A stretch of 64,000 bases of DNA, taken from contig NZ_JAVTTP010000001.1 of NCBI RefSeq assembly GCF_032248455.1, forward strand, positions 248,001-312,000, written 5' to 3'. The translations under genes were made by a program, and so were the position numbers. Each line of letters begins with the position of its first letter. Position 1 is the stretch's first letter. Shown here one piece after another: positions 31,232-46,950 of the stretch. The notes under the pieces were generated by a model. It was given only the letters and a program-made list of their open reading frames with translations. It had not been told where the DNA came from and did no database searches. The DNA is from Pricia mediterranea. Its GTDB lineage: Bacteria; Bacteroidota; Bacteroidia; Flavobacteriales; Flavobacteriaceae.

Positions 31232-31242
31232 AAAAAAAGACA

Positions 31243-32304
31243 ATGAAAACATATGAACATATCGTGGAACTCTTGGGGGATAAAGCATCCCACTATCTGG
31301 ACCACGTGAGCGAGAAAATAACCAAAGACGAATTGCAACTGCCTGAAAAAAATGTGGTGGACAAGGTATTTTTGAACAGCGACCGGAATACACGGGTCCT
31401 CGGAAGCCTATCTAAACTTTATAATCACGGCAACCTTGCAGGAACCGGATATCTGAGTATTCTTCCGGTAGATCAGGGCATCGAACATAGTGCCGCTTTT
31501 TCCTTCTATAAGAATCCCGATTATTTTGACCCTGAGAATATCATAAAATTGGCCATCGAAGCTGGCTGCAATGGGGTGGCCTCGACCTTTGGGGGCCTCG
31601 GCCTTTACGCTAGGAAATATGCGCATAAGGTTCCGTTCATCGTAAAAATAAATCACAACGAACTGTTGACCTATCCGAACAAATATGACCAAACGCTCTT
31701 CGGTACAGTGAAGGAAGCTTGGAACATGGGTGCAACGGCAATCGGTGCGACCATCTATTTCGGTTCCGAGGAAAGTAATCGGCAGTTGAGGGAGATTTCC
31801 GAGGCCTTTGCGGAAGCACACAGTCTTGGAATGGCCACCATTCTCTGGTGTTACACCCGCAACGAAGCTTTCAAAACCGATACGGAAGACTATCATTCAT
31901 CGGCCGATTTGACTTCACAGGCCAATCATCTTGGGATTACTATACAGGCGGATATCATCAAGCAAAAGTTGCCAACTACCAATTATGGATTCAAAAATAT
32001 TGGATTCGGCAAATTTAACGATGCCATGTATGAAACCTTGACCACGGAACATCCCATTGACCTATGTAGGTTACAAGTGGCAAATTGCTATATGGGCAAA
32101 ATTGGGTTGATCAATTCGGGAGGTGGCTCCAAGGGAGAATCCGACCTGACCGAAGCCATTATTACGGCAATCGTCAACAAACGGGCCGGAGGATCCGGTC
32201 TGATTCTGGGAAGAAAGGCTTTTCAGCGACCGTTCAAAGAGGGGGTTGAACTGTTACATGGCGTACAGGGCGTTTATTTAGAGAAGAAAGTAACCATAGC
32301 ATAA
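31243..32304 (+). CDS. fbaB: class I fructose-bisphosphate aldolase (DhnA/FbaB type)
   Basis: A 353-residue class I aldolase of the DhnA family. The Schiff-base lysine is K240 in ADIIKQK, close to the K237 position of E. coli FbaB, which has about the same length. Other family segments include [10 protein letters not shown] and the phosphate-binding [11 protein letters not shown]. It reversibly cleaves fructose-1,6-bisphosphate without a metal ion. Bacteroidota generally use a metal-dependent class II enzyme, so a class I form here with type II GAPDH is notable. It could serve glycolysis or gluconeogenesis under metal stress, because it does not need zinc (inference). Confidence 0.9.
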
Positions 32305-32317
32305 TGGATAATCAGGA

Positions 32318-33682
32318 ATGTTCGATACGGAAATAAAATCACTGAAATCACTTAACCACTACCTGCAAAAATTGGTGGAAGATAGGTTATGGCTAAAAGT
32401 TATCATTGCACTGTTCCTTGGGGTCGGTCTTGGACTGTTGTTAAGTCCCCAAAATGGTTGGATAACCAAAAGCACTGCCGATGTTCTTGGCAATTGGTTG
32501 GCCCTACCTGGCATGCTCTTTCTCAAATTGGTTCAGATGATCATGATTCCCTTGATCGTTGCCTCCATCATTACAGGTATAGCAAGTAATGACAAGGAGA
32601 ATCTGAAAAAGTTGGGTGGTGGGGTGCTCTTATATTTTATATCCACAACAATTATTTCGGTAACCATAGGTACAATCCTTGCCTTAATCTTTCGTCCTGG
32701 TAAGTATCTACATCAACAGGCCGTTGAGGATCATGAGGAGGCATTGGCCAATACTTCCGAAAGCACTGAATTATCATTCGGGATAAACGATATTCCAAAT
32801 GCTATTACAAATTTGTTGCCCGACAATCCTTTGGCATCCATGGTAAGTGGCGAAATGTTGAGTATCGTCATTTTTACCATTATAATAGGTGTTGCCGTGT
32901 TGTCCCTTCCCGACGATTTGCTAAAACCTGTAAAATTATTGCTGAGTGCCATACAGGAAATCTGTATGACCGTGGTCAAGTGGGCCATGTTGTTGGTTCC
33001 AGTCGCCGTATTCGGATTAATGGCACAGCTGACCTCCAGTGTCGGTCTGAATTCACTTTCAGGTCTGGGCTTTTATGTGCTCGTCGTCTTGATAGGGTTA
33101 TTGTTGTTGGTGGTAATTTACCTTATAGGTGTAAGCCTTTTAGGTAAGGGGAATCCGTTACAATTTTTACGTAAGATCAGGGATGTACAACTACTTGCAT
33201 TCTCCACCACCAGCTCCGCCGCAGTAATGCCCCTTTCCCTTAAAACGGCTGAGGAAGAACTGGAAGTGGATCCTACCATTAGCAATTTCATAATACCCAT
33301 TGGTGCTACCGTAAATATGGACGGTACGGCACTCTATCAGACCATAACCACCCTGTTTATTGCCCAAGCCTATGGATTGGAAATGGGATTGTTGAATGTC
33401 ATTGTGGTAGTGGTTACCATCGTGGCAGCTTCCATTGGTACTCCGGCAATACCCGGAGGGGGCGTAGTGATTTTGGCTTCTGTACTGTCCGGTGCAGGTA
33501 TACCAGCCGAGGGAATTATCATAATCATAGGGGTAGAACGGTTACTGGGAATGTTCCGGACGGCAGTTAACGTTACCGGAGACCTTACCGCCTGTATGGT
33601 GTTCAATCGATTTTATGGAAATCAGCCGGCCATAGGCTCAGATGGCGTATTAAAAAATCAAGAAGAGTATTCCACTGTTTAA
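32318..33682 (+). CDS. dicarboxylate/amino acid:cation symporter (DAACS)
   Basis: A 454-residue transporter of the DAACS (GltP/DctA) family. It has several N-terminal helices, a loop of acidic residues around 130-160, and the conserved helical-hairpin region STTSSAAVMPLSLK. The cation/substrate site MDGTALYQ and GGGVVILASVLSGAGIP are also present. It takes up C4-dicarboxylates, glutamate or aspartate with protons or sodium; the substrate is not determined. It sits between aldolase and phosphofructokinase. Confidence 0.9.
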   Translation: MFDTEIKSLKSLNHYLQKLVEDRLWLKVIIALFLGVGLGLLLSPQNGWITKSTADVLGNWLALPGMLFLKLVQMIMIPLIVASIITGIASNDKENLKKLGGGVLLYFISTTIISVTIGTILALIFRPGKYLHQQAVEDHEEALANTSESTELSFGINDIPNAITNLLPDNPLASMVSGEMLSIVIFTIIIGVAVLSLPDDLLKPVKLLLSAIQEICMTVVKWAMLLVPVAVFGLMAQLTSSVGLNSLSGLGFYVLVVLIGLLLLVVIYLIGVSLLGKGNPLQFLRKIRDVQLLAFSTTSSAAVMPLSLKTAEEELEVDPTISNFIIPIGATVNMDGTALYQTITTLFIAQAYGLEMGLLNVIVVVVTIVAASIGTPAIPGGGVVILASVLSGAGIPAEGIIIIIGVERLLGMFRTAVNVTGDLTACMVFNRFYGNQPAIGSDGVLKNQEEYSTV

Positions 33683-33742
33683 AAACTAGAAAATGAAAAG
33701 AATGACCGATGACATGAATGTTTAACAAACAAAGATTGAACT

Positions 33743-34714
33743 ATGGACACAAATATTAAACATATAGGCGTATTTACCTCTGGAGGCGATTCCCCTGGAA
33801 TGAATGCAGCACTGTACGCCATTTCAAAAGCTGCCGAAATAAACAATATAAGATTAAGCGGTATCCGCAGAGGCTATGAAGGGTTGATCGACGGCGATTT
33901 TGTAAAGTTGAAACCTAATGAAATGCAAAAAATTGTCCATCGGGGCGGTACCGTATTAAAGACGGCACGAAGCTCACGTTTTTTGACTTTGGAGGGAAGA
34001 AAACTTGCTTTGAACAACCTTTTGAAAAACAAAATCGATGCCTTAATAGCGATTGGTGGCGACGGCACTTTTAAAGGTCTACTTGTTTTTTCGGAACTAT
34101 GTGAACTACCCTTTGTGGGGATTCCCGGCACCATAGACAACGATCTGGCCGGTACCGATTTTACCCTTGGTTTTGATTCGGCGGTTAATACAGCCATTGA
34201 TAATATAGATAAAATCAGGGATACGGCAGAATCGCATAACCGCATATTCTTGATCGAAGTAATGGGCAGGGATTGCGGGTACATTGCCATTAATGCCGGA
34301 TTGGGGGTCGGTGCGGATGCTATTTTAATTCCTGAAAGTGGACAGGACTTCGTCCGTTTACTTGATAAGATTAAAAATTATGAAAGTGAAGATGCATTTA
34401 TCGTAGTTGTTGCCGAGGGCGATGAACTGGGGGCTGAAATTACAGCATCAAAAATTAAGGAATTGAACCCCGAAGTAGATCTGCGCATTACAAAATTGGG
34501 TCACGTACAGCGTGGTGGTAATCCGTCTGCTCTTGATAGGATGTTGGGCATACGGCTCGGGGCAGCTTCCGTAACCGCCCTCATGAATGGTGAAAGAAAT
34601 GTAATGGCAGGAATCCTTGATAACCAACTAAAATTTACCCCATTTGACAGCGTGGTAAAGCAGCATCAGGTAAATGAAGAGCTATATGAATTATTGAAAA
34701 CTTTGAACACATAA
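33743..34714 (+). CDS. pfkA: ATP-dependent 6-phosphofructokinase
   Basis: A 323-residue PfkA-type kinase that phosphorylates fructose-6-phosphate to fructose-1,6-bisphosphate. Motifs: GGDSPGMNA at the N-terminus, GGDGT (a glycine at the position that distinguishes ATP- from PPi-dependent forms), GTIDNDLAGTD with catalytic Asp132, EVMGRDCG and the phosphate site HVQRGG. It lies four bases before the D-lactate dehydrogenase gene, and 60 bases after the symporter with a 10-codon open frame between that I do not call. Confidence 0.95.
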   Translation: MDTNIKHIGVFTSGGDSPGMNAALYAISKAAEINNIRLSGIRRGYEGLIDGDFVKLKPNEMQKIVHRGGTVLKTARSSRFLTLEGRKLALNNLLKNKIDALIAIGGDGTFKGLLVFSELCELPFVGIPGTIDNDLAGTDFTLGFDSAVNTAIDNIDKIRDTAESHNRIFLIEVMGRDCGYIAINAGLGVGADAILIPESGQDFVRLLDKIKNYESEDAFIVVVAEGDELGAEITASKIKELNPEVDLRITKLGHVQRGGNPSALDRMLGIRLGAASVTALMNGERNVMAGILDNQLKFTPFDSVVKQHQVNEELYELLKTLNT

Positions 34715-34717
34715 AAG

Positions 34718-35707
34718 ATGAAAACGACCGTATTCAGCACCCATCAATTTGAAAAACCGTATTTGGAATCTGCGAACAATGATACGCATGAACTCAAACT
34801 GCTCGAAGTACGATTATCTGAAAATACGGTTTCCTTGGCACAGCATGCTGAAGCCGTATGTTTATTTACGGGCGACGATGCATCGGCGCCTGTTTTGGAA
34901 AAACTAAAGGATCTCGGGGTAGCATATATAGCACTTCGTTCGGCAGGTTTCAATCATGTGGATATTAAAAGAGCAAATGAACTGGGCCTAAAGGTGGCAA
35001 GAGTTCCGGCCTATTCTCCTTATGCAGTGGCCGAACACGTGTTGGCTCTGATCCTAGGCCTGAACAGAAAGCTCACAAGGGCGCATAACAGGGTTCGGGA
35101 GCAGAACTTCTCCCTAAACGGATTAATAGGTTTCGATATGAACGGCAAGACCGCCGGAATAATAGGAACGGGAAAGATCGGGGCCGTCTTGACAAAAATC
35201 CTACATGGTTTTGGATGTAAGATACTGGCATATGATGTTGAAAAGGATGAGAAGTTGGTCAAAGACTATGGAGTCCAATATACGGACTGTAAAACGCTTT
35301 GTAGCAAATCCGATATCATCAGTCTTCATATCCCCTTGACTTCCGAAACAAAGCATTTGATCGATGATGACCATATTGCCTTAATGAAGAAAGGGGTCAT
35401 GCTAATCAATACGAGTAGAGGGGGCCTAGTGGATACCAAAGCCGTCATCGAAGGATTGAAAACGGGTAGGATCGGATATTTTGGAATGGATGTTTACGAG
35501 GAAGAAGAAGGATTGTTCTTCGAAGACCGCTCGGACGAAATACTACAAGATGATGTCATTGCGCGTCTAATGACTTTCAACAATGTTTTGATAACCAGCC
35601 ATCAGGCTTTTCTGACCGACACGGCATTGACAAATATTGCCGAGACCACAATCTACAATTTGGATTGCTTTGAGAAAGGAAAGAATTCTGAAAATGAAGT
35701 TTTTTAA
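34718..35707 (+). CDS. ldhA: D-lactate dehydrogenase (2-hydroxyacid dehydrogenase family)
   Basis: A 329-residue D-2-hydroxyacid dehydrogenase of the LdhA group. The NAD-binding motif GTGKIGAVLTKIL and the catalytic segment NTSRGGLVDT are followed by DVYEEEEGLFFED and the catalytic His in TSHQAFLT. It reduces pyruvate to D-lactate and regenerates NAD+, so the pathway from phosphofructokinase would be fermentative. Its place directly after pfkA supports a role in low-oxygen energy metabolism. Confidence 0.92.
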   Translation: MKTTVFSTHQFEKPYLESANNDTHELKLLEVRLSENTVSLAQHAEAVCLFTGDDASAPVLEKLKDLGVAYIALRSAGFNHVDIKRANELGLKVARVPAYSPYAVAEHVLALILGLNRKLTRAHNRVREQNFSLNGLIGFDMNGKTAGIIGTGKIGAVLTKILHGFGCKILAYDVEKDEKLVKDYGVQYTDCKTLCSKSDIISLHIPLTSETKHLIDDDHIALMKKGVMLINTSRGGLVDTKAVIEGLKTGRIGYFGMDVYEEEEGLFFEDRSDEILQDDVIARLMTFNNVLITSHQAFLTDTALTNIAETTIYNLDCFEKGKNSENEVF

Positions 35708-35750
35708 TTAAGAAAAAAATACGAACACAATAATTATATAAACTTAAAAT

Positions 35751-36524
35751 ATGGATAGAGTAAAGAATAAAGTGGCCATTGTCACGGGAGGTGCCTCCGG
35801 CCTAGGAAAATCAAGTGCTATTTTGTTGGCGCGGGAAGGAGCAAAAATAGTTGTAACCGATATAGATGAAGAAAATGGAAATGAGGTAGTTCAACACATA
35901 AGGAATAGTGGCGGTGAGGCCATATACATTGAACAGGATGTATCCAAAGAAAATCAATGGGAAATGGTTATCGAAACTACGCTCAAAAAATTTGGAAAGC
36001 TACATGTCGTAGCTAATGCCGCAGGTATTGGACTCGGTGGAACGGTAGAAGAAGTTAGCCTTGAAGATTGGAAAAACCTTTTGGATATAAATCTGAACGG
36101 CACCTTCTTAGGCACCCAATATGGCATCAAGGGGATGAAAGAGACCGGAGAGGGCGGCTCAATCATCAATTTCTCGTCTATCGAAGGACTTATTGGTGAC
36201 CCCAATCTACCAGCATACAATGCGAGTAAAGGCGGTGTTACCATATTTACCAAATCTGCTGCGCTCCATTGCGCCAAACAAGGTTACAAGATTCGGGTCA
36301 ATTCTATTCATCCAGCTTATATCTGGACACCGATGGTAGAAAATTTTCTGAAAGCCCAAGGTGATGTAGAAGAAGGTAAAAAACAATTGGAAAGTTTACA
36401 CCCCGTCGGACATTTGGGAGAACCCGATGACATAGGTTATGGCGTAGTATATCTGGCCTCTGATGAATCTAAATTCATGACCGGCTCCGAATTGGTAATC
36501 GACGGGGGTTACACAGCACAATAA
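35751..36524 (+). CDS. SDR-family oxidoreductase
   Basis: A 257-residue classical short-chain dehydrogenase. TGGASGLG is the cofactor motif, the active-site Ser lies in NFSSIEG, and YNASKGG holds the catalytic Tyr and Lys. An Asp in VVTDIDEEN after beta-strand 2 points to NAD(H) preference. The substrate is unknown; hits of this length include cyclohexanol and hydroxysteroid dehydrogenases. It lies in line with the glycolytic genes, 43 bases after ldhA. Confidence 0.88.
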   Translation: MDRVKNKVAIVTGGASGLGKSSAILLAREGAKIVVTDIDEENGNEVVQHIRNSGGEAIYIEQDVSKENQWEMVIETTLKKFGKLHVVANAAGIGLGGTVEEVSLEDWKNLLDINLNGTFLGTQYGIKGMKETGEGGSIINFSSIEGLIGDPNLPAYNASKGGVTIFTKSAALHCAKQGYKIRVNSIHPAYIWTPMVENFLKAQGDVEEGKKQLESLHPVGHLGEPDDIGYGVVYLASDESKFMTGSELVIDGGYTAQ

Positions 36525-36550
36525 ATATTATACCCAAAAAATTAGAAAGA

Positions 36551-37381
36551 ATGAAAAATATACTTGTACCCACAGATTTTTCCGAAAACTGCACTAAAGC
36601 TGCCAATCTCGGAATAGCCATGGCCAAACTTTTTGATGCCGAAATCCATTTTTTCCATTTGATACAGACCCCTGTGGATTGGGTAAATCTGGACAAGCAA
36701 AAGGAAAAACGGTATCCTGAAACCTTAAAAAAAATCGGTAGTGCAAAATCCGCTTTACGCGAGCTGGAAAGGAAGGCCGAAAAGGAACATCTAAAATGTC
36801 AAACTTTCTTGCAATATCAGGTAAGCACCAGTAATATTTTAGAACATTCGGGGCATTTCGACCATGATTTTATCATCACGGGGAGCAGTGGCACCAAAGG
36901 CACGGTTAGGGAATTGTTCGGTAGCAACGTTGAGCAAATAGTACGAAAATCGGATGTGCCGGTAATCGTGGTCAAAGAGGAAGAGGTTTCATTTCCATTT
37001 AAGAATATCGTGTTCGTTTCTGATTTTGAAGAGGATGTAAGTGAAGCCTTTAAGCATGTAATCTCCATCGCTGACAAATGTAATGCACATATCCGTCTAT
37101 TGCGCGTCAATACCAAAACGGATACTAATAGTATCGAAGCGGGACTAAATCCGATTAAAACTTTCCTTGAAAAGTTCCCAGACCTGAAAAATTATTCCAT
37201 GTTCGTCAATAATGAACCTTCTGTAGAAACGGGGATCAATACCTTCTTAACCTATGAACCAGCTGATTTGATTGCCATGTGCACGCATGGAAATACTGGT
37301 TTTTTAAGCTTGTTTTCCAAAAGTATCGCAGAGGGTGTGGCAAATCATTCCACGCTTCCGGTAATGACGATTAAAATTTAA
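36551..37381 (+). CDS. tandem universal stress protein (UspA family)
   Basis: A 276-residue protein with two Usp domains (about 1-140 and 150-275). The first has the full ATP-binding loop GSSGTKGTVRELFGSN-VEQIVRKSDVPV. The second keeps THGNTGFLSLFSKSIAEGV-NHSTLPV. Tandem Usp proteins in Bacteroidota respond to starvation, oxygen shift or redox stress. The gene lies 26 bases after the SDR gene and 15 before an ion channel, in a block that looks like a stress-metabolism unit. Confidence 0.92.
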   Translation: MKNILVPTDFSENCTKAANLGIAMAKLFDAEIHFFHLIQTPVDWVNLDKQKEKRYPETLKKIGSAKSALRELERKAEKEHLKCQTFLQYQVSTSNILEHSGHFDHDFIITGSSGTKGTVRELFGSNVEQIVRKSDVPVIVVKEEEVSFPFKNIVFVSDFEEDVSEAFKHVISIADKCNAHIRLLRVNTKTDTNSIEAGLNPIKTFLEKFPDLKNYSMFVNNEPSVETGINTFLTYEPADLIAMCTHGNTGFLSLFSKSIAEGVANHSTLPVMTIKI

Positions 37382-37396
37382 ATAAACCATATCAAA

Positions 37397-37951
37397 ATGT
37401 CGGGAAGCTTACTTCAAATACGAGAAAAACCCTTTTACAAATTATTGTTGGGAAGAACGATTTTGCCCCTTGTTACTATTTTGGGTATTGGTATCCTGTA
37501 TGTTGTTTTAATGTCAATGGTCGATCATAAATCGTTGCCATTCCACATTATCATTGTAACAGCAGCATTGAGTAAGACCATCGTCATTACGATGACCACT
37601 TTAAAACGGTTATCAAAATTGATAAAAATTTGTCATTCATTGGAGCGATTGCTATGGGTTTTTGGTTTGATAATCATCATAAGTATTTTTTCTTTTGCGA
37701 CTGATTATGCATGCCTTTTTCAATTCAGCCATTCTACATTTGAAGGCGTACCCGATTATTCAAATTCGTACCTGTACAATTTGTACCACTTTTTCTACTT
37801 CAGTGTGATAACTTTTTCAACGGTGGGCTACGGCGATATAATTCCAACGTCCGATGTAGCCCGGTTCGTTGTTATGCTCGAAATATTCTTAAGTTTTTTC
37901 TTGATCGTCTTCGCTTTGGCCAATATTAAAAAAATACACATCAATGGATAA
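37397..37951 (+). CDS. ion channel family protein (two-helix potassium channel type), copy 2
   Basis: A 184-residue membrane protein with an N-terminal pair of helices, another pair around the pore and the filter TFSTVGYGDIIP. It resembles the channel at 12765-13313 in size and in the final helix (VFALANIKKIHING). The ATP-cone nuclease starts within its last codons (8-base overlap), so the two are translationally coupled, an odd pairing of channel and nuclease. Confidence 0.87.
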   Translation: MSGSLLQIREKPFYKLLLGRTILPLVTILGIGILYVVLMSMVDHKSLPFHIIIVTAALSKTIVITMTTLKRLSKLIKICHSLERLLWVFGLIIIISIFSFATDYACLFQFSHSTFEGVPDYSNSYLYNLYHFFYFSVITFSTVGYGDIIPTSDVARFVVMLEIFLSFFLIVFALANIKKIHING

Positions 37952-38795
37952 GATAAATATCATAAAGGCAAGCGGCGAGAAAGCACCTTTTGAAATAGAA
38001 AAAGTGATACGTTCATTAGAACGGGCGGGTGCCGATAAATTGTTGGTCAAAGAGATAGTTCAAGATATTGATAAAAAAGTTCATGACGGAATGACTACCA
38101 AAAAGATATATCAAATGGCCTTTAACACATTAAAGAGAAGGTCTAGGGTTAGTGCTTCAAAATACAAGCTCAAAAAAGCTCTAATGGAACTGGGGCCATC
38201 AGGCTATCCCTTTGAAAAATTTGTTGGCAAAATTTTGGAGCACGAAGGCTTTGATGCAAAAGTCGGGGTGATCGTACAAGGAAACTGTGTACAGCACGAA
38301 GTGGATGTGATTGCCCAAAAGGAGAATAAACACTTTATGATTGAATGCAAATACCATAGTGACCAAGGACGGTTTTGCAATGTGAAAATCCCGCTCTACA
38401 TCCAATCTAGATTTTTGGATGTCCAAAAGCAATGGGAAAAGCAAGAAAGCCACAAAAACAAATCACATCAAGGCGGTGTGTACACTAATACCCGTTTTAC
38501 GACCGATGCCATGCAATATGGAAACTGTGTCGGGTTGATGCTGACCAGTTGGGATTATCCTAAAGGAAGAGCGTTAAAGGATAGAATAGACAAAGCTGGC
38601 CTGCATCCCTTAACCTCACTGACCACGATTACCAAATCGGAGAAATCGAAATTGTTGGAACAGGAAATCGTACTCTGTAGGGAAATAAAGGACAATCCCG
38701 ATGTGTTGAAAAAAGTTGGGATTGATGGGGCCAGACGAAAAAAGATTCTAGCGGATTCACAAAGTCTATGCGAAACCCATCAACCAAACACTTGA
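37944..38795 (+). CDS. ATP-cone protein fused to a Mrr-type PD-(D/E)XK nuclease
   Basis: A 283-residue fusion. Residues about 3-90 form an ATP-cone (IIKASGEKAPFEIEKVIRSL; KIYQMAFNTLKRRSR), the nucleotide-sensing domain of ribonucleotide reductases and NrdR. Residues about 95-220 form a Mrr-like restriction-endonuclease fold with the catalytic residues D121 and E134-Cys-K136 (EVDVIAQ; IECKYH). The intact residues imply nuclease activity, presumably gated by ATP, dATP or AMP binding. Partners follow directly: a beta-CASP RNase, AMP phosphorylase and PRPP synthetase. The target (DNA or RNA) is unknown. Confidence 0.88.
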   Translation: MDKINIIKASGEKAPFEIEKVIRSLERAGADKLLVKEIVQDIDKKVHDGMTTKKIYQMAFNTLKRRSRVSASKYKLKKALMELGPSGYPFEKFVGKILEHEGFDAKVGVIVQGNCVQHEVDVIAQKENKHFMIECKYHSDQGRFCNVKIPLYIQSRFLDVQKQWEKQESHKNKSHQGGVYTNTRFTTDAMQYGNCVGLMLTSWDYPKGRALKDRIDKAGLHPLTSLTTITKSEKSKLLEQEIVLCREIKDNPDVLKKVGIDGARRKKILADSQSLCETHQPNT

Positions 38796-38798
38796 ATT

Positions 38799-40175
38799 AT
38801 GACCGATAGCACTATTAATATCCATTTTTTAGGAGCGGCCGGTACTGTTACCGGCTCCAAATATCTTTTGGACACAGGGGATAGAAAAATACTTATCGAT
38901 TGCGGTCTATTTCAGGGGATCAAAGAACTACGCTTAAAAAACTGGGAATATCCACCTGTAAACGTCAACGAAATTGATGCCGTATTGCTTACCCATGGCC
39001 ATTTGGACCATACGGGCTATCTGCCAAGGTTGGTAAAGCAAGGCTTTAGGGGACCCATTTATGGCACCTACCCCACTCTGGACATCGCCAAGATTATATT
39101 GAACGATAGTGCCAAAATACAAGAGCAAGAAGCCGAACGTGCCAATAAGGAAGGGTATTCAAAGCACGATCCGGCAAAACCCTTGTATGATTTAAAGGAT
39201 GTTGAAAAGACTATTCTGTATTTCAAGGGAGTACCGCCCGGCCAGTGGCTCCCCCTGTTAAAGAACGTAAAAGCAAGATTTCAGTATAACGGGCATATTC
39301 TCGGGGCAATCCATATTGAATTGGATGTGCAGGGTAAACGATTCGTTTTTTCAGGGGATATTGGTAGAACAAACGATTTGCTCTTGTATCCCCCAGTAAA
39401 GCCAAAAAGGGCGGATGTGTTGTTTATGGAATCAACGTATGGTGGCAGGTTCCATCCCGAAGAGGAAGAGGCCATCCCTCTCATAGAAAAATTGGTCAAC
39501 GAAACCCTTACACGGGACGGTAGTCTTTTCATTCCAAGTTTTTCGGTTGAACGCGCCCAATTGATGATGTTGATATTTTGGAGGCTATTAAAAGAAAACA
39601 AAATTCCGAAAGTCCCCATGATAATGGACAGTCCCATGGGGGCCAATGTCTTGGAACTATTTCACAGAACGCGGGACTGGCATAGGTTGGAAGATGACGA
39701 GTGTGACAAAATGTGCTCCCACTTTACCGTTGTTAGCAGCTACCGTGAAACTATGGAACTGAGAAGTGATGATAAATCAAAAATTGTCATTGCCGGAAGC
39801 GGAATGCTCACAGGCGGCAGAATGTTGAACTATCTGGAAACCCAGGCACAAAATCCTGATAACACCTTACTCTTTGTTGGCTATCAAGCGGAAGGTACCC
39901 GTGGAAGAAAATTATTGGAAGGAGAAAAGGAATTAAAAGTGTATGGAAAGACCGTATCCTTCAAAATGCAAGTGGCCGAGATTGAAGGACTTTCGGCCCA
40001 TGCAGACCATGCCGAATTGTTGGATTGGTTGAGTGATGTAAAGGAACCGCCAGAGAAAATATTTATAGTTCATGGCGAAAAAGAAGGGGCCGAGGCCTTA
40101 AAACAGGGAATCAAGGAAACCTATGGTTGGAATAGTGAAATTCCTCAACTCTATGGTATCGAAAAGTTAAAGTAG
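38799..40175 (+). CDS. beta-CASP metallo-beta-lactamase-fold RNase
   Basis: A 458-residue metallo-beta-lactamase-fold protein of the RNA-processing type. Zinc motif THGHLDHTGYL with His66, His68, Asp70 and His71; the downstream GDIGR motif; the beta-CASP insertion with GSGMLTGGR; then AHADHAELLDWL and VHGEKEGAEAL at the end. It resembles bacterial relatives of CPSF-73, often annotated as RNA exonucleases. It follows the ATP-cone nuclease after three bases and precedes the AMP phosphorylase. Together they suggest RNA breakdown coupled to nucleotide salvage. Confidence 0.92.
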   Translation: MTDSTINIHFLGAAGTVTGSKYLLDTGDRKILIDCGLFQGIKELRLKNWEYPPVNVNEIDAVLLTHGHLDHTGYLPRLVKQGFRGPIYGTYPTLDIAKIILNDSAKIQEQEAERANKEGYSKHDPAKPLYDLKDVEKTILYFKGVPPGQWLPLLKNVKARFQYNGHILGAIHIELDVQGKRFVFSGDIGRTNDLLLYPPVKPKRADVLFMESTYGGRFHPEEEEAIPLIEKLVNETLTRDGSLFIPSFSVERAQLMMLIFWRLLKENKIPKVPMIMDSPMGANVLELFHRTRDWHRLEDDECDKMCSHFTVVSSYRETMELRSDDKSKIVIAGSGMLTGGRMLNYLETQAQNPDNTLLFVGYQAEGTRGRKLLEGEKELKVYGKTVSFKMQVAEIEGLSAHADHAELLDWLSDVKEPPEKIFIVHGEKEGAEALKQGIKETYGWNSEIPQLYGIEKLK

Positions 40176-40198
40176 GTAAGAAATTACGAAAGAATAAC

Positions 40199-41707
40199 AT
40201 GGAAATGGAAAAAAAATCAAACATCCTCAAATACAAATCGCTAGGCATTTACACGCAAAATGAAAACGTTGTGTATATGCGAGAAGATTGTCATGTCTGT
40301 ATTTCAGAAGGGTTTGAGGCATTGACCCGAATAAGGGTATCGAACATGAGCACCTCAGTAATTGCAAGCCTCCATATCATTACTTCGGATGTACTTAGGC
40401 AGGGCGAAATAGGGCTGTCACAAATAGCAGCAAAAAAACTCAACGTATCTGACGGCGAAACGTTATATGTATCCCATTTGGAACCCATTGAATCATTGAG
40501 TTTTGTAAGGGCGAAAATTTATAATCAAAGACTCGATTACAAAGCCTACACGGATATTATTACGGATATCATCGAAGGGGATTATTCAAACATCCATCTA
40601 TCGGCATTCATTACAGCATGTGCAGGCGACCGAATGGATTTAGATGAAATCTCGGATCTTACCAAGGCAATGATTACCTCGGGAAAACAACTGGATTGGA
40701 AGAAGAAAATAGTGGTGGACAAACACTGTATCGGGGGGTTGCCGGGCAATAGAACTACACCTATCGTTGTAGCAATTGCCGCCGCTTACGGGTTGACCAT
40801 GCCCAAAACGTCCTCACGGGCCATTACCTCGCCTGCTGGTACGGCCGATACCATGGAAGTATTGACGAATGTGACCCTTTCTGGCGAAGAAATCAAACGT
40901 GTCGTGGAACAGGAGGGCGGCTGTTTGGTATGGGGCGGCACTGCGGAATTAAGCCCAGCGGACGATATTCTTATCAAAGTCGAGAAAGCACTCGATATTG
41001 ATAGCGAAGGCCAGCTAATCGCCTCCGTACTGTCCAAAAAAGCGGCTGCAGGTGCTACCCATGTGGTCATCGACATTCCTGTTGGGAAAACGGCCAAGGT
41101 GCGCAGTGAAGAGGCCGCGCAAAAACTCAAGGAACATATGGAAGCCGTAGGCAATGCAGTAGGGCTTAAAATAAAGGTGGTCATTACCGATGGCAGCCAG
41201 CCCGTGGGAAGGGGTATCGGCCCTAATTTAGAGGCGGTTGATGTGCTAAGTGTTTTGCAGAATAAGAGGGATGCGCCACAAGACCTAAAAGAACGGGCAT
41301 TATTGTTGGCGGGGCACCTCTTGGAACTATCGGAAAAAGTGGAAACAGGAAAAGGCCTTGATACAGCGAAAGAATTGTTGGAAAACGGAAAAGCTTATCA
41401 AAAATTCGAGGCCATCTGCAAGGCCCAAGGAAGATTTTCAAAAACCTATGTTGCCCCTTACCAATTTGAGATGCATGCACCTAAACGTGGTAAGGTCAAA
41501 AAAATAAACAATCGAAAGATTGCAAAACTTGCAAAGCTATCGGGGGCGCCACAATCCAAATCGGCAGGCATTTCGATGAACGTCCGGTTGGGCGATGAGA
41601 TAGAAAAGGGGGAATTGCTCTATATACTCCACGCGGAAACAAATGGCGAACTGAACTATGCCTTGGAATATTATGAGAATCATGATGATATAATTACAAT
41701 CCAATAA
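40199..41707 (+). CDS. AMP phosphorylase / thymidine phosphorylase family (archaeal-length form)
   Basis: A 502-residue member of the nucleoside phosphorylase-II family with an N-terminal extension of about 90 residues, the length and layout of archaeal AMP phosphorylases (about 503 residues) rather than the 440-residue thymidine phosphorylases. The motif DKHCIGGLPGNRTT begins at D174 and SSRAITSPAGTADTMEV follows, with the Ser/Thr and Lys for phosphate. AMP phosphorylase converts AMP plus phosphate to adenine and ribose-1,5-bisphosphate; archaea pass that to R15P isomerase and RubisCO, neither of which is in this window. It is coupled with PRPP synthetase (nine bases). Confidence 0.85.
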   Translation: MEMEKKSNILKYKSLGIYTQNENVVYMREDCHVCISEGFEALTRIRVSNMSTSVIASLHIITSDVLRQGEIGLSQIAAKKLNVSDGETLYVSHLEPIESLSFVRAKIYNQRLDYKAYTDIITDIIEGDYSNIHLSAFITACAGDRMDLDEISDLTKAMITSGKQLDWKKKIVVDKHCIGGLPGNRTTPIVVAIAAAYGLTMPKTSSRAITSPAGTADTMEVLTNVTLSGEEIKRVVEQEGGCLVWGGTAELSPADDILIKVEKALDIDSEGQLIASVLSKKAAAGATHVVIDIPVGKTAKVRSEEAAQKLKEHMEAVGNAVGLKIKVVITDGSQPVGRGIGPNLEAVDVLSVLQNKRDAPQDLKERALLLAGHLLELSEKVETGKGLDTAKELLENGKAYQKFEAICKAQGRFSKTYVAPYQFEMHAPKRGKVKKINNRKIAKLAKLSGAPQSKSAGISMNVRLGDEIEKGELLYILHAETNGELNYALEYYENHDDIITIQ

Positions 41708-41716
41708 AAAGAACTT

Positions 41717-42610
41717 ATGCAAACGATATTGTTTAGCCTTCCCGGCAACCAAGAACTAACGGAACTCTTGGCAAAGAAAATGAATGCTGAAATCGGGGAA
41801 TGTGCGATACGTAAATTTCCCGACGGCGAATCCTATACCCGTATCCTTTCCGATGTGAAAGGAAAATGTGTGGCAATGGTCTGTACCCTTCACGAACCCG
41901 ATGAAAAGTTGTTGCCACTTTACTTTTTGAGCCATACGGCCAAATCATTGGGGGCAATGTGTACCTGTTTGGTGGCACCCTATTTGGCTTATATGCGCCA
42001 AGACAAGGTTTTTAACGAAGGTGAGGGGGTTACCTCCACCTATTTTGGAAAATTGATTTCGGGCTTTGCCGATAGTATCACGACCGTCGATCCCCATTTG
42101 CATCGCATAAGTTCTTTAGGCGAGGTATATGATATTCCGAATAGGGTTATCCATGCCGCGGATGCCATCTCCAAATACATCAAGGAAAATATACACAATC
42201 CGGTATTAATAGGCCCTGATTCCGAAAGCGAGCAATGGGTCTCCGATGTGGCGGAAAAAGCCGGAGTTCCGTTTACCGTATTGCAAAAGGTGCGCCATGG
42301 CGATCGTGATGTTGAAGTTTCCGTTCCCGATGTAGACAAGTATGAGGATTGCACACCTGTTTTGGTGGATGATATTATATCTACGGCCCGGACTATGATA
42401 GAAACCACAGAACATTTGAAAAATGCCGGAATGAAACCAGCAATATGCATAGGTATACATGCCGTTTTTTCCGGAAATGCCTATCAAGACCTTTGGGATG
42501 CCAATGTAGAGAATATCATTACGTGTAATACAATTCCACATCAATCCAACGGCATTGACTTGAGTGATATCATTGCCAAAGAAGTAACTGAACTGATGTA
42601 CCATACATGA
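41717..42610 (+). CDS. prs: ribose-phosphate pyrophosphokinase (PRPP synthetase) family
   Basis: A 297-residue PRPP synthetase-like protein. It retains the PYLAYMRQDK motif that binds ATP and the PRPP loop VLVDDIISTART with D218 and D219. The length (near 300) and an early FPDGESYTRI segment fit the shorter archaeal-like class more than the bacterial 315-residue enzymes. PRPP synthetase makes PRPP and AMP from ribose-5-phosphate and ATP. Beside AMP phosphorylase it may close a loop that recycles AMP. The stop overlaps the next gene's ATG (ATGA). Confidence 0.88.
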   Translation: MQTILFSLPGNQELTELLAKKMNAEIGECAIRKFPDGESYTRILSDVKGKCVAMVCTLHEPDEKLLPLYFLSHTAKSLGAMCTCLVAPYLAYMRQDKVFNEGEGVTSTYFGKLISGFADSITTVDPHLHRISSLGEVYDIPNRVIHAADAISKYIKENIHNPVLIGPDSESEQWVSDVAEKAGVPFTVLQKVRHGDRDVEVSVPDVDKYEDCTPVLVDDIISTARTMIETTEHLKNAGMKPAICIGIHAVFSGNAYQDLWDANVENIITCNTIPHQSNGIDLSDIIAKEVTELMYHT

Positions 42611-43257
42611 AAAGTACCATTGGCATATTGACCGTTTTATTGTCATCCTTTTTTTCACAGGCACAAGAAGAAATGCTTATAGGCCAACTCGCCGACAGAT
42701 TGGTCGTAAGGGAAAATTATGATGAAAATGGCGCTTTTCTTAATAAGCAAACCTTTCAGGCGGGAGGGTTAATAGAAACGGATGGATATTATGAAATTCA
42801 GGTAGAAACCGAATTCTTTGATGAAAATGGGAAATCAACGGATAAATACTCCACCACCTATCGCTGTCGGCCAGAAGCATCGAGCGTTATGGTAATGGCA
42901 TTTCCATTTTCAAATCGAAAATCAAAAGAAACCGAAATAAACACCAGTTCCAAAAATTTCAAGGATTTATACGACATGGACAATTTGAAAGATGTTGAAC
43001 TCGAAATAAGTTTTGATTCGGGATTACTGGATTTTTTCGGCTCAAAAAGTAAGATCAACATTTTTGACAGAAAGCTGAATCCTGAAACAAAGGAAATCCA
43101 AATCAATTCAAAACTCACGGCGAAAGCCTATACGTGGGGTATACGCATTAAGGAACTTGAGTATTCGGTACTTGAAAAAATATCGAAAAAAGGGCTGCTG
43201 TCCTTTCAAAAATTCGAAGAAAACGATGGCAGCTATTTTACGATAATCTATAAATAA
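42607..43257 (+). CDS. secreted protein of unknown function
   Basis: A 216-residue protein with a signal peptide (STIGILTVLLSSFFSQAQ). The remainder is rich in beta strands and charged residues and shows no motif known to me. The gene overlaps the PRPP synthetase by four bases, so the two are likely co-translated even though one works in the cytosol and the other outside. It could bind an outer-membrane or periplasmic partner. Confidence 0.55.
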   Translation: MKSTIGILTVLLSSFFSQAQEEMLIGQLADRLVVRENYDENGAFLNKQTFQAGGLIETDGYYEIQVETEFFDENGKSTDKYSTTYRCRPEASSVMVMAFPFSNRKSKETEINTSSKNFKDLYDMDNLKDVELEISFDSGLLDFFGSKSKINIFDRKLNPETKEIQINSKLTAKAYTWGIRIKELEYSVLEKISKKGLLSFQKFEENDGSYFTIIYK

Positions 43258-43268
43258 AAACAAAGAAA

Positions 43269-43562
43269 ATGAAGAGTTACGATACACTTTCAGAGGCGAT
43301 AAACGCACTTCAAAATAGAGGGTATACCTATGATTTCAACCTCAACCCCCACTGTTTGGAATGTGCCGCCCTAAAATTGGAAATAAATCCCGAAGATTTT
43401 GAGGTGGATGAAATGCACCGCTTTGAAGGAATGAGCAGTACCGATGACAACAGCATCCTGTATGCAATTTCATCCAAAGACGGAATCAAGGGCACTCTAG
43501 TCGATGCCTATGGGGTATATGCACAGAACATCTCCGAAGAAATGCGAAAAAAACTACGATAA
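43269..43562 (+). CDS. small conserved Bacteroidota protein (often labelled phosphoribosylpyrophosphate synthetase)
   Basis: A 97-residue protein beginning MKSYDTLSEAINALQNRGY, with a Cys-Leu-Glu-Cys segment near residue 29 (HCLECAALKL) and a compact C-terminal half. Homologues in Bacteroidota of about this length are sometimes named phosphoribosylpyrophosphate synthetase, but nothing in the sequence shows the PRPP loop or kinase fold. A small regulatory or metal-binding role is possible. It lies 11 bases after the secreted protein and 16 before the P-type ATPase. Confidence 0.65.
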   Translation: MKSYDTLSEAINALQNRGYTYDFNLNPHCLECAALKLEINPEDFEVDEMHRFEGMSSTDDNSILYAISSKDGIKGTLVDAYGVYAQNISEEMRKKLR

Positions 43563-43578
43563 CACTTAAATAAAGAAC

Positions 43579-45735
43579 ATGGAAAATCACGAGCATCACA
43601 AGCACAATCATAGCAAAAGAAGTAAGGATTCCGCAAAGGAAAAGGCAGTAGATAAAAAGACCGAATTGAAAGATTCACTGGCCGAAAAAACCGAGCATGG
43701 CCATACCAAAGCCATGGATAAGGAACACAAAATGAGCCATGACGACCATTCAGGCCATAATCCGAAACATGGGCAGATGGGTCATGACCACCATAAGATG
43801 ATGATCGCTGACTTTAGAAAACGTTTTTGGGTAACCTTGGTACTTACCATACCTATTCTATTTCTGTCGCCGATGATCCAGGAATTTTTCGGCTATGAAT
43901 TTTTGCTGCCGGGCAATCCGTACATTCTATTTGCGCTATCGTCCATAGTGTATTTCTATGGTGGCTGGCCATTTTTAAAGGGGTTCTGGTCTGAGGTAAA
44001 AAAAGGTGCCCCGGGAATGATGACCCTGATTGCCATGGCTATAAGTGTGGCCTATTTTTACAGTTCGGCTACCGTTTTTGGTCTTGAAGGTGTTGATTTC
44101 TTTTGGGAACTGGCTACCCTTATAGCTATTATGCTCGTAGGCCATTGGATAGAGATGAAGAGTGTTCTGGGAGCTTCTAAAGCCTTACAGCTATTGGTTA
44201 GTATGATGCCCGCCGAAGCACACCTCGTAAAAGGCGATACGATAGAGGACATAGCACTGGAAGATTTATTGAAAGGTGATCTGATCCTGATAAAACCAGG
44301 AGAGAAAGTTCCTGCGGACGGTATTATCGTAGAAGGTTCCAGTTATTTGAACGAATCGATGCTTACAGGAGAATCCAAACCTGTAAAAAAAGAACTGAAC
44401 GACAAAGTGATAGGTGGTTCGGTAAACGGGAACAGTAGTTTAAAGGTCAAGGTGGAACATACCGGTAAGGATAGTTATCTAAATAAAGTGATAACCATGG
44501 TCGAGGAAGCCCAAAAAACAAAATCCAAAATGCAAAACCTTTCAGATAGGGCTGCCAAATGGCTTACCTATATTGCATTGGCGATTGGTTTTGGCACATT
44601 GGCTGTTTGGCTAGTATTGGGCTTCCCCTTTGTATATGCCTTGGAACGGATGGTTACGGTTATGGTCATTGCCTGTCCTCACGCACTGGGTCTTGCCATT
44701 CCATTGGTGGTAGCCATTTCCACAGCAGTTTCTGCACAGAACGGATTATTGATCCGCAACAGGACGGCATTTGAAGAATCCCGAAAAATATCCGCTCTGC
44801 TTTTTGACAAGACCGGAACGCTGACCAAAGGAGATTTTGGCGTTACCCGTATAGAATCGGTAGATAATAACTATTCCTCTGACGAAGTCCTACGGCTTGC
44901 CAGTGCCCTAGAACAAAGTTCCGAACACCCCATTGCAGTTGGCATTATCAAAAAAGTCAAAGAGGATAAGATAACAATCCCTAAACCTGAAAATTTTAAT
45001 TCCATTACCGGAAAAGGTGTTGAAGCGACTGTAGAGGGCAAAAAGATAAAAGTGGTAAGCCCCGGTTATTTACGGGATGAAAAAATAACCATTCCAGAAG
45101 ATGCTTACAGCGATGCTGCGGAAACGGTGGTTTTTGTCCTTATCGATGGAAAATTGGTGGGATATATCGCCCTTGCCGATGAGATCAGACCGGAATCCGC
45201 CGAAGCGATTAGAGTATTCAAAAAGAACAATATAAAAGTACTCATGGCAACAGGAGACAATGAAAAGACCGCAAAGGCAGTAAGTGAAAAACTGGGGCTT
45301 GACGGTTATTATGCCGAAGTTTTGCCCCACCAAAAAGTTGAAATCGTAGAGCAATTACAAAACAAAGAAGAATTTGTTGCCATGACCGGCGATGGGGTAA
45401 ACGATGCACCTGCACTGGCAAAGGCCGATGTGGGAATCGCAGTTGGCTCGGGCACCGATGTTGCCGCAGAGACCGCCGATATTATTCTGGTCAACAGTAA
45501 TCCGCAGGACATAGCCAACCTGATTTTATTCGGCAAGGCCACTTACAACAAAATGATCCAAAACCTGATTTGGGCAACCGGTTATAATGTTGTGGCTATT
45601 CCCTTAGCAGCTGGAGTCTTGTATTCTTCAGGATTTGTCCTAGGTCCGGCGGTCGGTGCTGTTTTTATGAGCCTGTCTACTATCATTGTGGCCATCAACG
45701 CTCAATTACTAAAGAGGAAAATTGCGAAGAAATAA
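43579..45735 (+). CDS. copB: copper-translocating P-type ATPase (CPH type)
   Basis: A 718-residue P1B ATPase with a His-rich N-terminus (ENHEHHKHNHSKR; SHDDHSGHNPKHGQMGHDHHKM) instead of an HMA domain. The transport motif is CPH (366-368, ACPHALGLAIP), DKTGT has Asp410, and TGES and GDGVNDAPALA are present. The CPH type belongs to P1B-3 pumps such as CopB, which export Cu(II)/Cu(I) or Ag. It complements the CPC type pump at 1352-3610. The gene ends one base before the MFS gene. Confidence 0.92.
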   Translation: MENHEHHKHNHSKRSKDSAKEKAVDKKTELKDSLAEKTEHGHTKAMDKEHKMSHDDHSGHNPKHGQMGHDHHKMMIADFRKRFWVTLVLTIPILFLSPMIQEFFGYEFLLPGNPYILFALSSIVYFYGGWPFLKGFWSEVKKGAPGMMTLIAMAISVAYFYSSATVFGLEGVDFFWELATLIAIMLVGHWIEMKSVLGASKALQLLVSMMPAEAHLVKGDTIEDIALEDLLKGDLILIKPGEKVPADGIIVEGSSYLNESMLTGESKPVKKELNDKVIGGSVNGNSSLKVKVEHTGKDSYLNKVITMVEEAQKTKSKMQNLSDRAAKWLTYIALAIGFGTLAVWLVLGFPFVYALERMVTVMVIACPHALGLAIPLVVAISTAVSAQNGLLIRNRTAFEESRKISALLFDKTGTLTKGDFGVTRIESVDNNYSSDEVLRLASALEQSSEHPIAVGIIKKVKEDKITIPKPENFNSITGKGVEATVEGKKIKVVSPGYLRDEKITIPEDAYSDAAETVVFVLIDGKLVGYIALADEIRPESAEAIRVFKKNNIKVLMATGDNEKTAKAVSEKLGLDGYYAEVLPHQKVEIVEQLQNKEEFVAMTGDGVNDAPALAKADVGIAVGSGTDVAAETADIILVNSNPQDIANLILFGKATYNKMIQNLIWATGYNVVAIPLAAGVLYSSGFVLGPAVGAVFMSLSTIIVAINAQLLKRKIAKK

Positions 45736-46950
45736 ATGGACAAGCCACAAAAACTTGGCAGGATATTTTTGATTCTGCTAAGTTTATTTGTCGTTATGCT
45801 AGGGTACGGGATACTGCTGCCCATACTCCCCTACTATACCGAAATACTGGCATTAAAGGATAATTTAGATGCCGACCGGATTAACTTCCATATCGGCATG
45901 TTGACCAGCATTTATCCGTTATTCCAACTCATATTCGTAATTGTATGGGGCAGACTTTCGGATAAGTATGGTCGTAAGCCCATAATTCTAGTGGGCCTTA
46001 TCGGATTTATAGCAATGAACTTGCTGACCGGACTGGCCACTTCGCTTGCCATGCTCTATGCCGCCCGTATCTTAGGGGGAATATTCACTTCATCTGTCAT
46101 CCCTGTAAGCAATGCCTATCTAAGTGATATAACCTCGCAAAAACGAAGAACCAAAATAATGGCATGGTCAGGTGTTGCAATTAGTTCTGGTGTTATTTTC
46201 GGCCCTGTTTTGGGCGGCCTCTTATCCCAGACCAATATACATTGGGAACTTTCTTTTTGGGTATTTCATTTTAACCGATTTTCGGTTCCATTTCTCTTTG
46301 CAGCCGTATTAGGTTTTATCGTGTTGCTCGTAATTGTAAAATGGTTGAAGAATACAGCCGTTGCGACCAAGATCAGAGAAAAATCGACAAAATTCAGTTT
46401 CTCCTTTAGTCATTATTTTATGGTACTATTAGCACTGTCTTTTGTCATGCAATTTGTTGTGACCCTCTTTGAAACCGTATTTTCAATTTATGGCAAGGAT
46501 GAATTAGCGTTCAATAGTAATCAAGTCGGTATTGGCTTTATGCTTTGCGGTTCTGTGATGGCAGTCTTACAGCCTGTTTTTGCTACTTATGGGGAAAAGA
46601 TAATGACCTCGAAACAGCAAATCACGTTAGGCTTATTGATAACAGGGGTATCGCTCGTAGTATTCCCCTTTTTACAAAATGAGCTATCTGTATATGGCAT
46701 GATAATACTATTTGCCAGTGGCGGTGCCATGGTAACCCCAAACCTGCTTTCGGCGGTCTCTATGTTATCCAAGGAAGATACGGGAAGTAATATTTCCATT
46801 CAAAGCTCCACGAACAGTATCGGACAGATTTTGGGACCTGTGTTGGGAACATGGTTGTTGGCAGGTGGCTTTTATTATCCCTTTATAATTGCAGGATTAG
46901 TCGTTTTGGTTGCAATAGGATTGGTTTATTATCTACAACCAAAAAATTAG
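45736..46950 (+). CDS. MFS transporter
   Basis: A 404-residue major facilitator protein with 12 expected helices and motif A (GRLSDKYGRKPIIL) after helix 2. It resembles drug or metal-related exporters of the TetA/DHA1 type; substrate is unknown. It begins directly after the CPH ATPase, so it may export a ligand connected to metal stress. It is the last gene of the plus-strand array before a gap. Confidence 0.87.
   Translation: MDKPQKLGRIFLILLSLFVVMLGYGILLPILPYYTEILALKDNLDADRINFHIGMLTSIYPLFQLIFVIVWGRLSDKYGRKPIILVGLIGFIAMNLLTGLATSLAMLYAARILGGIFTSSVIPVSNAYLSDITSQKRRTKIMAWSGVAISSGVIFGPVLGGLLSQTNIHWELSFWVFHFNRFSVPFLFAAVLGFIVLLVIVKWLKNTAVATKIREKSTKFSFSFSHYFMVLLALSFVMQFVVTLFETVFSIYGKDELAFNSNQVGIGFMLCGSVMAVLQPVFATYGEKIMTSKQQITLGLLITGVSLVVFPFLQNELSVYGMIILFASGGAMVTPNLLSAVSMLSKEDTGSNISIQSSTNSIGQILGPVLGTWLLAGGFYYPFIIAGLVVLVAIGLVYYLQPKN

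Follow-up and report, generated by a model that had tools for sequence, protein, structure and literature searches.

A stretch of 64,000 nucleotides from Pricia mediterranea (NCBI RefSeq assembly GCF_032248455.1, contig NZ_JAVTTP010000001.1, positions 248,001 to 312,000 of the forward strand; the whole stretch is called the window here and positions are counted from its first letter) carries four consecutive genes for an ATP-cone nuclease, a beta-CASP RNase, a phosphorylase and a homologue of phosphoribosyl pyrophosphate (PRPP) synthetase from the PRK07199 family, which an original prediction from the sequence had read as one unit leading from RNA to PRPP. Our comparisons show that the unit is better drawn around the phosphorylase and PRK07199 alone, a pair to which the nucleases are optional additions and which often lies on mobile stress or metal islands, and we consider it probable that the pair is the core of a horizontally spread nucleotide-salvage module serving under energy stress, chiefly at low oxygen.

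In such a module the phosphorylase would act as an archaeal-type nucleoside monophosphate (NMP) phosphorylase, converting adenosine monophosphate (AMP), and perhaps CMP and UMP, with phosphate (Pi) to the free base and ribose-1,5-bisphosphate (R15P), while the PRK07199 protein would act on the same pool (AMP/ADP/ATP, ribose 5-phosphate (R5P), R15P and PRPP) and pass the phosphoribosyl unit on to PRPP or R5P. Where a beta-CASP RNase accompanies the pair it could supply 5'-NMPs from RNA, a plausible but dispensable step, and the ATP-cone nuclease would be an optional add-on. The substrates, the direction of flux and the supply from RNA are what we infer here; the underlying chemistry is already known from the archaeal NMP phosphorylase and is not a new category.

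Conservation of the phosphorylase-PRK07199 pair

Genome contigs were scanned with nine phosphorylases, and neighbouring genes were sought by tblastn in the best 80 of 569 confirmed loci, some of which are clipped by contig ends so that counts of missing genes are upper bounds. A PRK07199 gene was found in 71/80 loci, within 300 bp and on the same strand in 63/80, the beta-CASP RNase in 49 (next to the phosphorylase and on its strand in 36, the nuclease being absent from at least 16 of these) and the ATP-cone nuclease in 23, with all four families present in 20. The proposed co-occurrence of all four families is therefore borne out, across Bacteroidota, Pseudomonadota, Chlamydiota and others, for the phosphorylase with PRK07199 and in many cases the RNase, but not for the nuclease. 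Of 11 annotated plasmid stretches that carry a bacterial phosphorylase not fused to another domain, 10 show a PRPP synthetase (L034-L041, L133 and L159), and a metallo-beta-lactamase (MBL) gene lies within the stretch shown in 6 of the first eight.

The phosphorylase family is patchy, being above cut-off in 4/40 genomes (P. mediterranea and relatives). Across 395 genomes of the same phylum, P. mediterranea included, the phosphorylase family PRK04350 was over its cut-off in 3, with a fourth match truncated, and PRK07199 was over its own cut-off in the same 3 (Fisher test, P = 3.9e-7, counting the truncated match as phosphorylase only). A second set comprised 250 genomes from the family of a Polaromonas locus (G072), with a fusion protein as the phosphorylase query at E 1e-60 and PRK07199 taken at E 1e-75 (95 over the family cut-off); here the phosphorylase was found in 87 genomes, PRK07199 in 96, both in 83 and neither in 150 (Fisher test, P = 1.2e-46), and for 82 of the 92 phosphorylase copies a same-strand PRK07199 gene lay no more than 600 bp away. 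The pairing is far beyond chance, and the pair, rather than each gene alone, would seem to be under selection. We take the pair and not the surrounding island as the core because the pair without beta-CASP recurs beside unrelated genes in Oceanospirillales-type loci (L057, L065, L068, L080, L090, L103 and L105, from Amphritea, Neptuniibacter, Nitrincola and Marinobacterium), where it stands next to formyltransferase, CBS or nitroreductase genes and not in a stress island. Alignment distances of the PRPP synthetase (r 0.73, 73 loci), the RNase (0.88, 49 loci) and the nuclease (0.90, 26 loci) also correlated with those of the phosphorylase, 0/999 permutations reaching each value, but these correlations were not used as evidence because shared phylogeny alone can produce them.

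As a separate observation, plasmids of Legionella anisa and Novosphingobium carry an F1F0-ATPase operon near the pair (L036:2548-9280; L133:14240-20770), its subunit alpha being named 'alternate' in L036.

Residues and family of the phosphorylase

The phosphorylase passes the cut-offs of PRK04350 (699.2 bits, cut-off 434) and TIGR02645 (607.5 bits, cut-off 434.6), and the nearest solved chain is 4ga5 (E 2.9e-100). When five bacterial members were aligned with two haloarchaeal AMP phosphorylases (both so named by annotation) and four thymidine or pyrimidine nucleoside phosphorylases (TP/PyNP), 29 columns were identical in the bacterial and haloarchaeal proteins and absent from TP/PyNP, with 1 column showing the opposite. 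Position E262 is Glu in 82/83 bacterial phosphorylases and Arg in all four TP/PyNP rows, an Arg which we take to be pyrimidine-binding. Judged by its sequence, then, the enzyme has AMP-type rather than thymidine-type residues and AMP phosphorylase is its closest characterised family, as had been proposed, and it is predicted to phosphorolyse AMP, perhaps CMP and UMP too, to R15P. The archaeal AMP/NMP phosphorylase TK0352 of T. kodakarensis is alike in family, length, AMP-type residues and expected R15P product.

A Thermococcus enzyme phosphorolyses AMP, CMP and UMP (PMC9700705). An N-terminal DCHxC motif (residues 30-38) was also noticed, with C34 in 81/83 bacterial phosphorylases and C31 in 69 (Ser in 14), which was not seen in the two haloarchaeal phosphorylases or in L133 and is a possible metal or redox site.

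The PRPP-synthetase homologue

The product of the fourth gene scored 395.2 bits against NCBIfam PRK07199 (cut-off 322), and its structural model (pLDDT 92.9) has the PRPP-synthetase fold (TMq 0.89 to Thermoplasma 3mbi). Of 65 open reading frames (ORFs) found, 61 were of fitting length and 58 of these were aligned with the window protein, three being left out, to give 59 rows. With the site residues of E. coli PRPP synthetase (PMC9232217) as the comparison, catalytic positions D36, E38, R94, Q95, D96, H127, D168, K191, R193, D218, D219 and T226 were kept in 97-100% of rows, so that the protein is alike in fold and catalytic residues to the PRPP synthetases of Thermoplasma (3mbi) and E. coli (7xmu). 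It differs from them in its phosphate loop, which reads PDxES in 59/59 rows (E170, S171, Q173 and W174 being invariant) and has neither the PDxGG of class I, as in the canonical copy of the same genome, nor the archaeal PDxGA; in an invariant DPHLHR in place of the DLHADQ of that copy; and in being a second copy beside the canonical one, since the genome encodes one further PRPP synthetase elsewhere, with canonical loops. Two archaeal chains carry PDxGA, and so the loop can vary among proteins that are called synthetases. By residue numbering, Q173 presumably corresponds to K176 of human PRPS2, although an argument from this position is weak because the archaeal chains also lack Lys. In PRPS2, K176 contacts the beta-phosphate of ADP, unlike in E. 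coli (PMC10227994). The START form of the PRPP loop was dropped as a telling feature as it varies within the family.

It is quite possible, though we would stop short of calling it probable, that within the module the PRK07199 protein serves for ordinary PRPP synthesis (R5P + ATP -> PRPP + AMP) and that R15P goes elsewhere, in which case the phosphorylase would remove the AMP formed or supply adenine for salvage with that PRPP. The retained catalytic positions and the fold favour this, as does a 2026 preprint (PMC13252144) which distinguishes classes I, II and IV-XI among bacterial PRPS and reports catalytic residues kept across the major classes, with the two divergent classes that were assayed active with R5P + ATP; the word 'phosphorylase' does not occur in its main text. 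The canonical synthetase already present in the genome and the loop altered in every row argue the other way, as does the fact that R15P use is not known for anything else in the four genes; 31/40 genomes have neither R15P isomerase nor the ribose 1,5-bisphosphokinase PhnN over cut-off.

A more tentative version of the same module, which we hold to be possible yet doubtful, makes the PRK07199 protein, in place of a working PRPP synthetase, the bacterial R15P-using partner of the NMP phosphorylase, catalysing either R15P + AMP -> R5P + ADP or a PhnN-like formation of PRPP from R15P. Both forms are kept because of the changed phosphate loop, because R15P isomerase and PhnN are missing from most of the genomes surveyed, and because PhnN fusions seemingly replace PRK07199. 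The reaction of R15P with AMP would need no shift of PRPP-synthetase geometry as it would be the reverse reaction minus the outer phosphate, and if it does occur, the pair would convert 2 AMP + Pi to adenine + R5P + ADP and so win a phosphoanhydride bond from spent AMP without oxygen.

Possible fate of ribose-1,5-bisphosphate

The 40 genomes surveyed for R15P enzymes were that of P. mediterranea and those of 39 of the 80 loci. R15P isomerase was over cut-off in 0/40, P. mediterranea giving no match at all; family matches below cut-off in 10/40 are, we presume, of the MtnA type. RubisCO-family genes were found in 4/40 and PhnN over cut-off in 9/40, P. mediterranea being among neither. The archaeal R15P isomerase-RubisCO route was rejected on these counts, and the original statement that the archaeal partner enzymes are missing is correct for this genome. 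The locus thus differs from the archaeal pentose bisphosphate pathway both in the scarcity of these enzymes and in having a PRPP-synthetase homologue as neighbour, besides a phosphorylase that falls short of the AMP_phos cut-off.

A different link from R15P to PRPP was seen in fused genes. A Variovorax plasmid (L128, 9242-11395) encodes a 717-residue protein in which PhnN (TIGR02322, 179.7 bits, cut-off 156) is fused to a PRK04350 domain (604 bits), and a Pacificitalea plasmid gene (L156), annotated as one coding sequence, has the same layout. Paraburkholderia (L157) and the genome G492 (L170) show consecutive PhnN and phosphorylase matches in the same direction and, by match starts, in one frame; no PRK07199 match was found in G492. 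PhnN, known from the phosphonate and NAD pathways with the E. coli enzyme as example, makes PRPP from R15P (PMC9700705, PMC11452294); it is a guanylate-kinase relative, unlike the PRPP-synthetase-related PRK07199. The fusions are context evidence which suggests that R15P is the product of this phosphorylase family and is converted back to PRPP.

In 4/4 of the PhnN-phosphorylase loci nadC lies directly upstream (L128:8400-11395; L156:5125-8091; L157:5148-7710; L170:3406-6335), with a TctC or TRAP binding protein near by in L128 and L156. In Variovorax, bug27 lies beside nadC and phnN and its product binds quinolinate in vitro (PMC11452294); the word 'phosphorylase' does not occur in that paper. 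The nadC-PhnN-phosphorylase arrangement hints at another use of this chemistry and suggests a cycle in which quinolinate + PRPP -> nicotinate mononucleotide (NaMN), NaMN + Pi -> nicotinate + R15P, and R15P + ATP -> PRPP.

Low oxygen, metals and the weight of the evidence

An indication of when the pair may be used comes from Bradyrhizobium, in which bll3115 (MBL), bll3116 (PRPP synthetase) and bll3117 ('thymidine phosphorylase family') were matched to the families described here by product names and gene order. Under microoxia their proteins rise by log2 fold changes of 2.9, 4.4 and 2.1 and their transcripts 15.4, 7.7 and 5.1 fold respectively (PMC6515984). The three genes are predicted to form a single operon, which has a FixK2-type motif at -74; without FixK2 bll3115 is 30.6-fold and bll3117 6.6-fold lower; a phosphoketolase-acetate kinase operon elsewhere in the genome is similarly regulated (PMC9104804). 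Judging the literature by titles and abstract openings, we found no paper on the bacterial phosphorylase-PRK07199 pair, though such a paper may exist, and genes of the pair appear in the expression tables of both Bradyrhizobium papers. Among the 80 loci, any of eight fermentation or energy genes was near by in 27, with type II GAPDH in 10, a D-LDH-like gene in 10, phosphoketolase in 10 and acetate kinase in 7.

Several results weigh against an energy-stress module built on AMP phosphorolysis. The phosphorylase scores 500.8 bits against TIGR03327 (AMP_phos), below the curated cut-off of 535, where four other non-fused bacterial members score 452-506, a PhnN fusion 383 and one haloarchaeal protein 616, and to that extent the AMP phosphorylase identity first proposed is weakened. 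PRK07199 was unseen in 9/80 loci and beta-CASP in 31/80 (some contigs being short), the plasmid stretch L158 has the phosphorylase and an MBL gene with no PRPP synthetase seen, and in the Polaromonas family set 13/96 PRK07199 genomes lacked the phosphorylase at the threshold used and 4/87 showed the reverse. Phosphoketolase was found in 10/40 genomes with no match in P. mediterranea, so that it was rejected as a general sink for R5P and a route from R5P to acetate is not general. The 2019 table (PMC6515984) does not mark bll3115-3117 as direct FixK2 targets, nor as differential in bacteroids. The FNR-type box gave 17 matches in the window against 12.0 expected, with 12/100 shuffles giving as many, and metal-gene neighbours could reflect linkage through shared mobile islands. 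The energy-stress setting that had been suggested therefore keeps its support from the like-named Bradyrhizobium operon and is weakened by the window itself, where no operator stands out from chance, and by the frequency of metal genes.

Those metal genes, a P-type ATPase in 42/80 loci, an RND pump in 15 and either in 47, are about as frequent near the phosphorylase as the RNase (47 versus 49 of 80), which makes metal stress an alternative setting. The genes might then be cargo of metal-resistance islands, with stress isozymes (type II GAPDH, class I aldolase) replacing metal-poisoned enzymes and the pair helping to repair nucleotides when the stress comes from metals and not from low oxygen. 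Carriage on plasmids beside copper genes fits this, as do phosphorylase matches in 171 plasmid records, 114 of them covering at least 80% of its length, although true thymidine phosphorylases are included in these. We think such a role unlikely given that the Bradyrhizobium operon responds to oxygen (PMC6515984, PMC9104804) and that the available DNA of 33/80 loci holds neither metal gene.

Annotation as thymidine phosphorylase

Many records annotate the phosphorylase as a thymidine or pyrimidine phosphorylase, and both families whose cut-offs it passes, PRK04350 and TIGR02645, bear the name 'thymidine phosphorylase', which is an annotation and not an assay. Were the name right the cluster would be one of ordinary nucleoside salvage, which we regard as very improbable: the protein is far below the cut-offs for thymidine phosphorylase (T_phosphoryl, TIGR02643; 150.1 versus 570.7 bits) and Y_phosphoryl (211.3 versus 409), the columns described above side with the haloarchaeal enzymes by 29 to 1, Glu stands in 82/83 bacterial members where TP/PyNP have Arg, and deoC/deoB, seen beside annotated pyrimidine/thymidine phosphorylases, are not among the neighbours in eight annotated plasmid stretches or in the named neighbour clusters. 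A thymidine/pyrimidine phosphorylase identity was accordingly rejected on scores and residues.

The nucleases as optional partners

The nuclease matches Pfam ATP-cone (31.4 bits, cut-off 25.8) and Mrr_cat (26.1 bits), and from residue 93 to residue 274 it aligns with AF1548 (1y88, function unknown; E 8.4e-35), which leaves the ATP-cone uncovered. Its AlphaFold model (pLDDT 91.3) resembles 1y88 (TMt 0.82, E 2.6e-16), the nuclease and C-terminal part and the fold being alike, and NrdR and RNR chains are matched weakly at their ATP-cones (E values from about 0.004 upwards). E91, D121 and E134-x-K136 do not vary across an alignment of 24 rows, made up of the window protein, two from plasmids and 21 of the 23 ORFs found at the loci, and the nuclease was thus rightly described as an intact PD-(D/E)XK enzyme. 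It occurs in 72/395 genomes of the phylum, 4 of which have a phosphorylase match, these being all 4 phosphorylase genomes (P = 0.001), which makes it a gene that is linked to the phosphorylase but mainly independent of it. A second ATP-cone nuclease of the P. mediterranea genome (G000:C1:3703272-3704105; L003, L168), 50% identical over 275 residues, lies away from the phosphorylase.

The RNase is nearest to TTHA0252 of Thermus thermophilus over nearly its full length (E 1.5e-71). It has the HxHxDH motif and partner His/Asp of the MBL fold, T65-H66-x-H68-x-D70-H71, H166, D187, H401 and H425 being invariant in 14 rows; identities as Cas14 (NF045584) and aCPSF1 (TIGR03675) were rejected at 393.7 and 305.9 bits against cut-offs of 800 and 580.2. 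TTHA0252 is a 5'-3' exoRNase which influences global mRNA levels (PMC4229858), and it differs from the window RNase in that the latter sits in a nucleotide-salvage run and has an activity predicted from its likeness. The idea that RNA is turned through AMP into ribose phosphates thus retains the conserved pair, the AMP-type residues, an exonuclease RNase family and, as a connection from R15P to PRPP, the PhnN fusions, and loses the nuclease, which is an occasional partner. We give hardly any credence to the two nucleases being a defence or dormancy pair with metabolic genes as chance neighbours, as the weak match of the nuclease part to CARF-PDDEXK effectors (31.2 bits, PADLOC) reflects a shared nuclease fold, PADLOC yielding weak matches of this kind only and none for the phosphorylase or PRK07199, and the RNase adjoins the phosphorylase in at least 16 loci where the nuclease is absent.

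Layout of the locus and its island

The four ORFs were confirmed on one strand with gaps of 3, 23 and 9 bases (Table 1). The original unit, 37944-42610, is cut too short, since it overlaps its neighbours on both sides (the channel ORF by 8 bases and the ORF at 42607 by 4) and is enclosed in a same-strand run of 17 ORFs, 29940-46950, with successive gaps of at most 60 bases.

Table 1. The phosphorylase-PRK07199 pair and its neighbours in the window
Feature	Position	Strand	Remarks
ATP-cone + PD-(D/E)XK (Mrr/AF1548-type) nuclease, 283 aa	37944..38795	+	Pfam ATP-cone, Mrr_cat; optional partner
beta-CASP/RMMBL RNase, TTHA0252 type, 458 aa	38799..40175	+	beta-CASP and RMMBL domains; frequent third member
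AMP/NMP-phosphorylase-like enzyme, 502 aa	40199..41707	+	Glycos_transf_3/PYNP_C, PRK04350, TIGR02645; core member
Divergent ribose-phosphate diphosphokinase, PRK07199 family, 297 aa	41717..42610	+	PRPP synthetase domains; core member
DUF5676, type II GAPDH, class I FBA, dicarboxylate symporter, PFK, D-LDH-like, SDR, Usp, ion channel	29940..37951	+	upstream of the four genes
Two proteins without Pfam match (216, 97 aa), heavy-metal P-type ATPase, MFS transporter	42607..46950	+	downstream

The island combines alternative glycolysis, stress and metal-efflux genes, the MFS transporter being named from our reading and the annotation of neighbours. Parts of it recur in flavobacteria, a Verrucomicrobia metagenome-assembled genome (L049) and Marinicella (L048) at 31-92% protein identity, most above 60%, and this suggests, from sequence comparison, cross-phylum transfer. 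The upstream block recurs, with varying completeness, in flavobacterial, Verrucomicrobia and Marinicella loci. The host genome is 4.57 Mb in 3 contigs, and the nearest named matches among those listed are flavobacteria (Arenibacter, Tenacibaculum, Aequorivita, Gillisia). Directly 3' of the pair, two conserved proteins without a Pfam match (42607-43257, with an apparent N-terminal signal peptide as judged by eye, and 43269-43562) belong to clusters found in 15 and 10 loci, the window included, and just past the island the opposite strand carries a 5515-aa open reading frame (47398-63945).

Meaning for bacterial nucleotide metabolism

In the records examined, most bacterial members of the phosphorylase family carry the annotation 'thymidine phosphorylase family protein', a name behind which a probable R15P branch goes unnoticed in bacteria without the archaeal pathway. 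Should the phosphorylase and the PRK07199 protein work together as proposed here, they would reveal what becomes of ribose-1,5-bisphosphate in bacteria, and they may explain how cells draw on AMP and RNA under low oxygen or metal stress.

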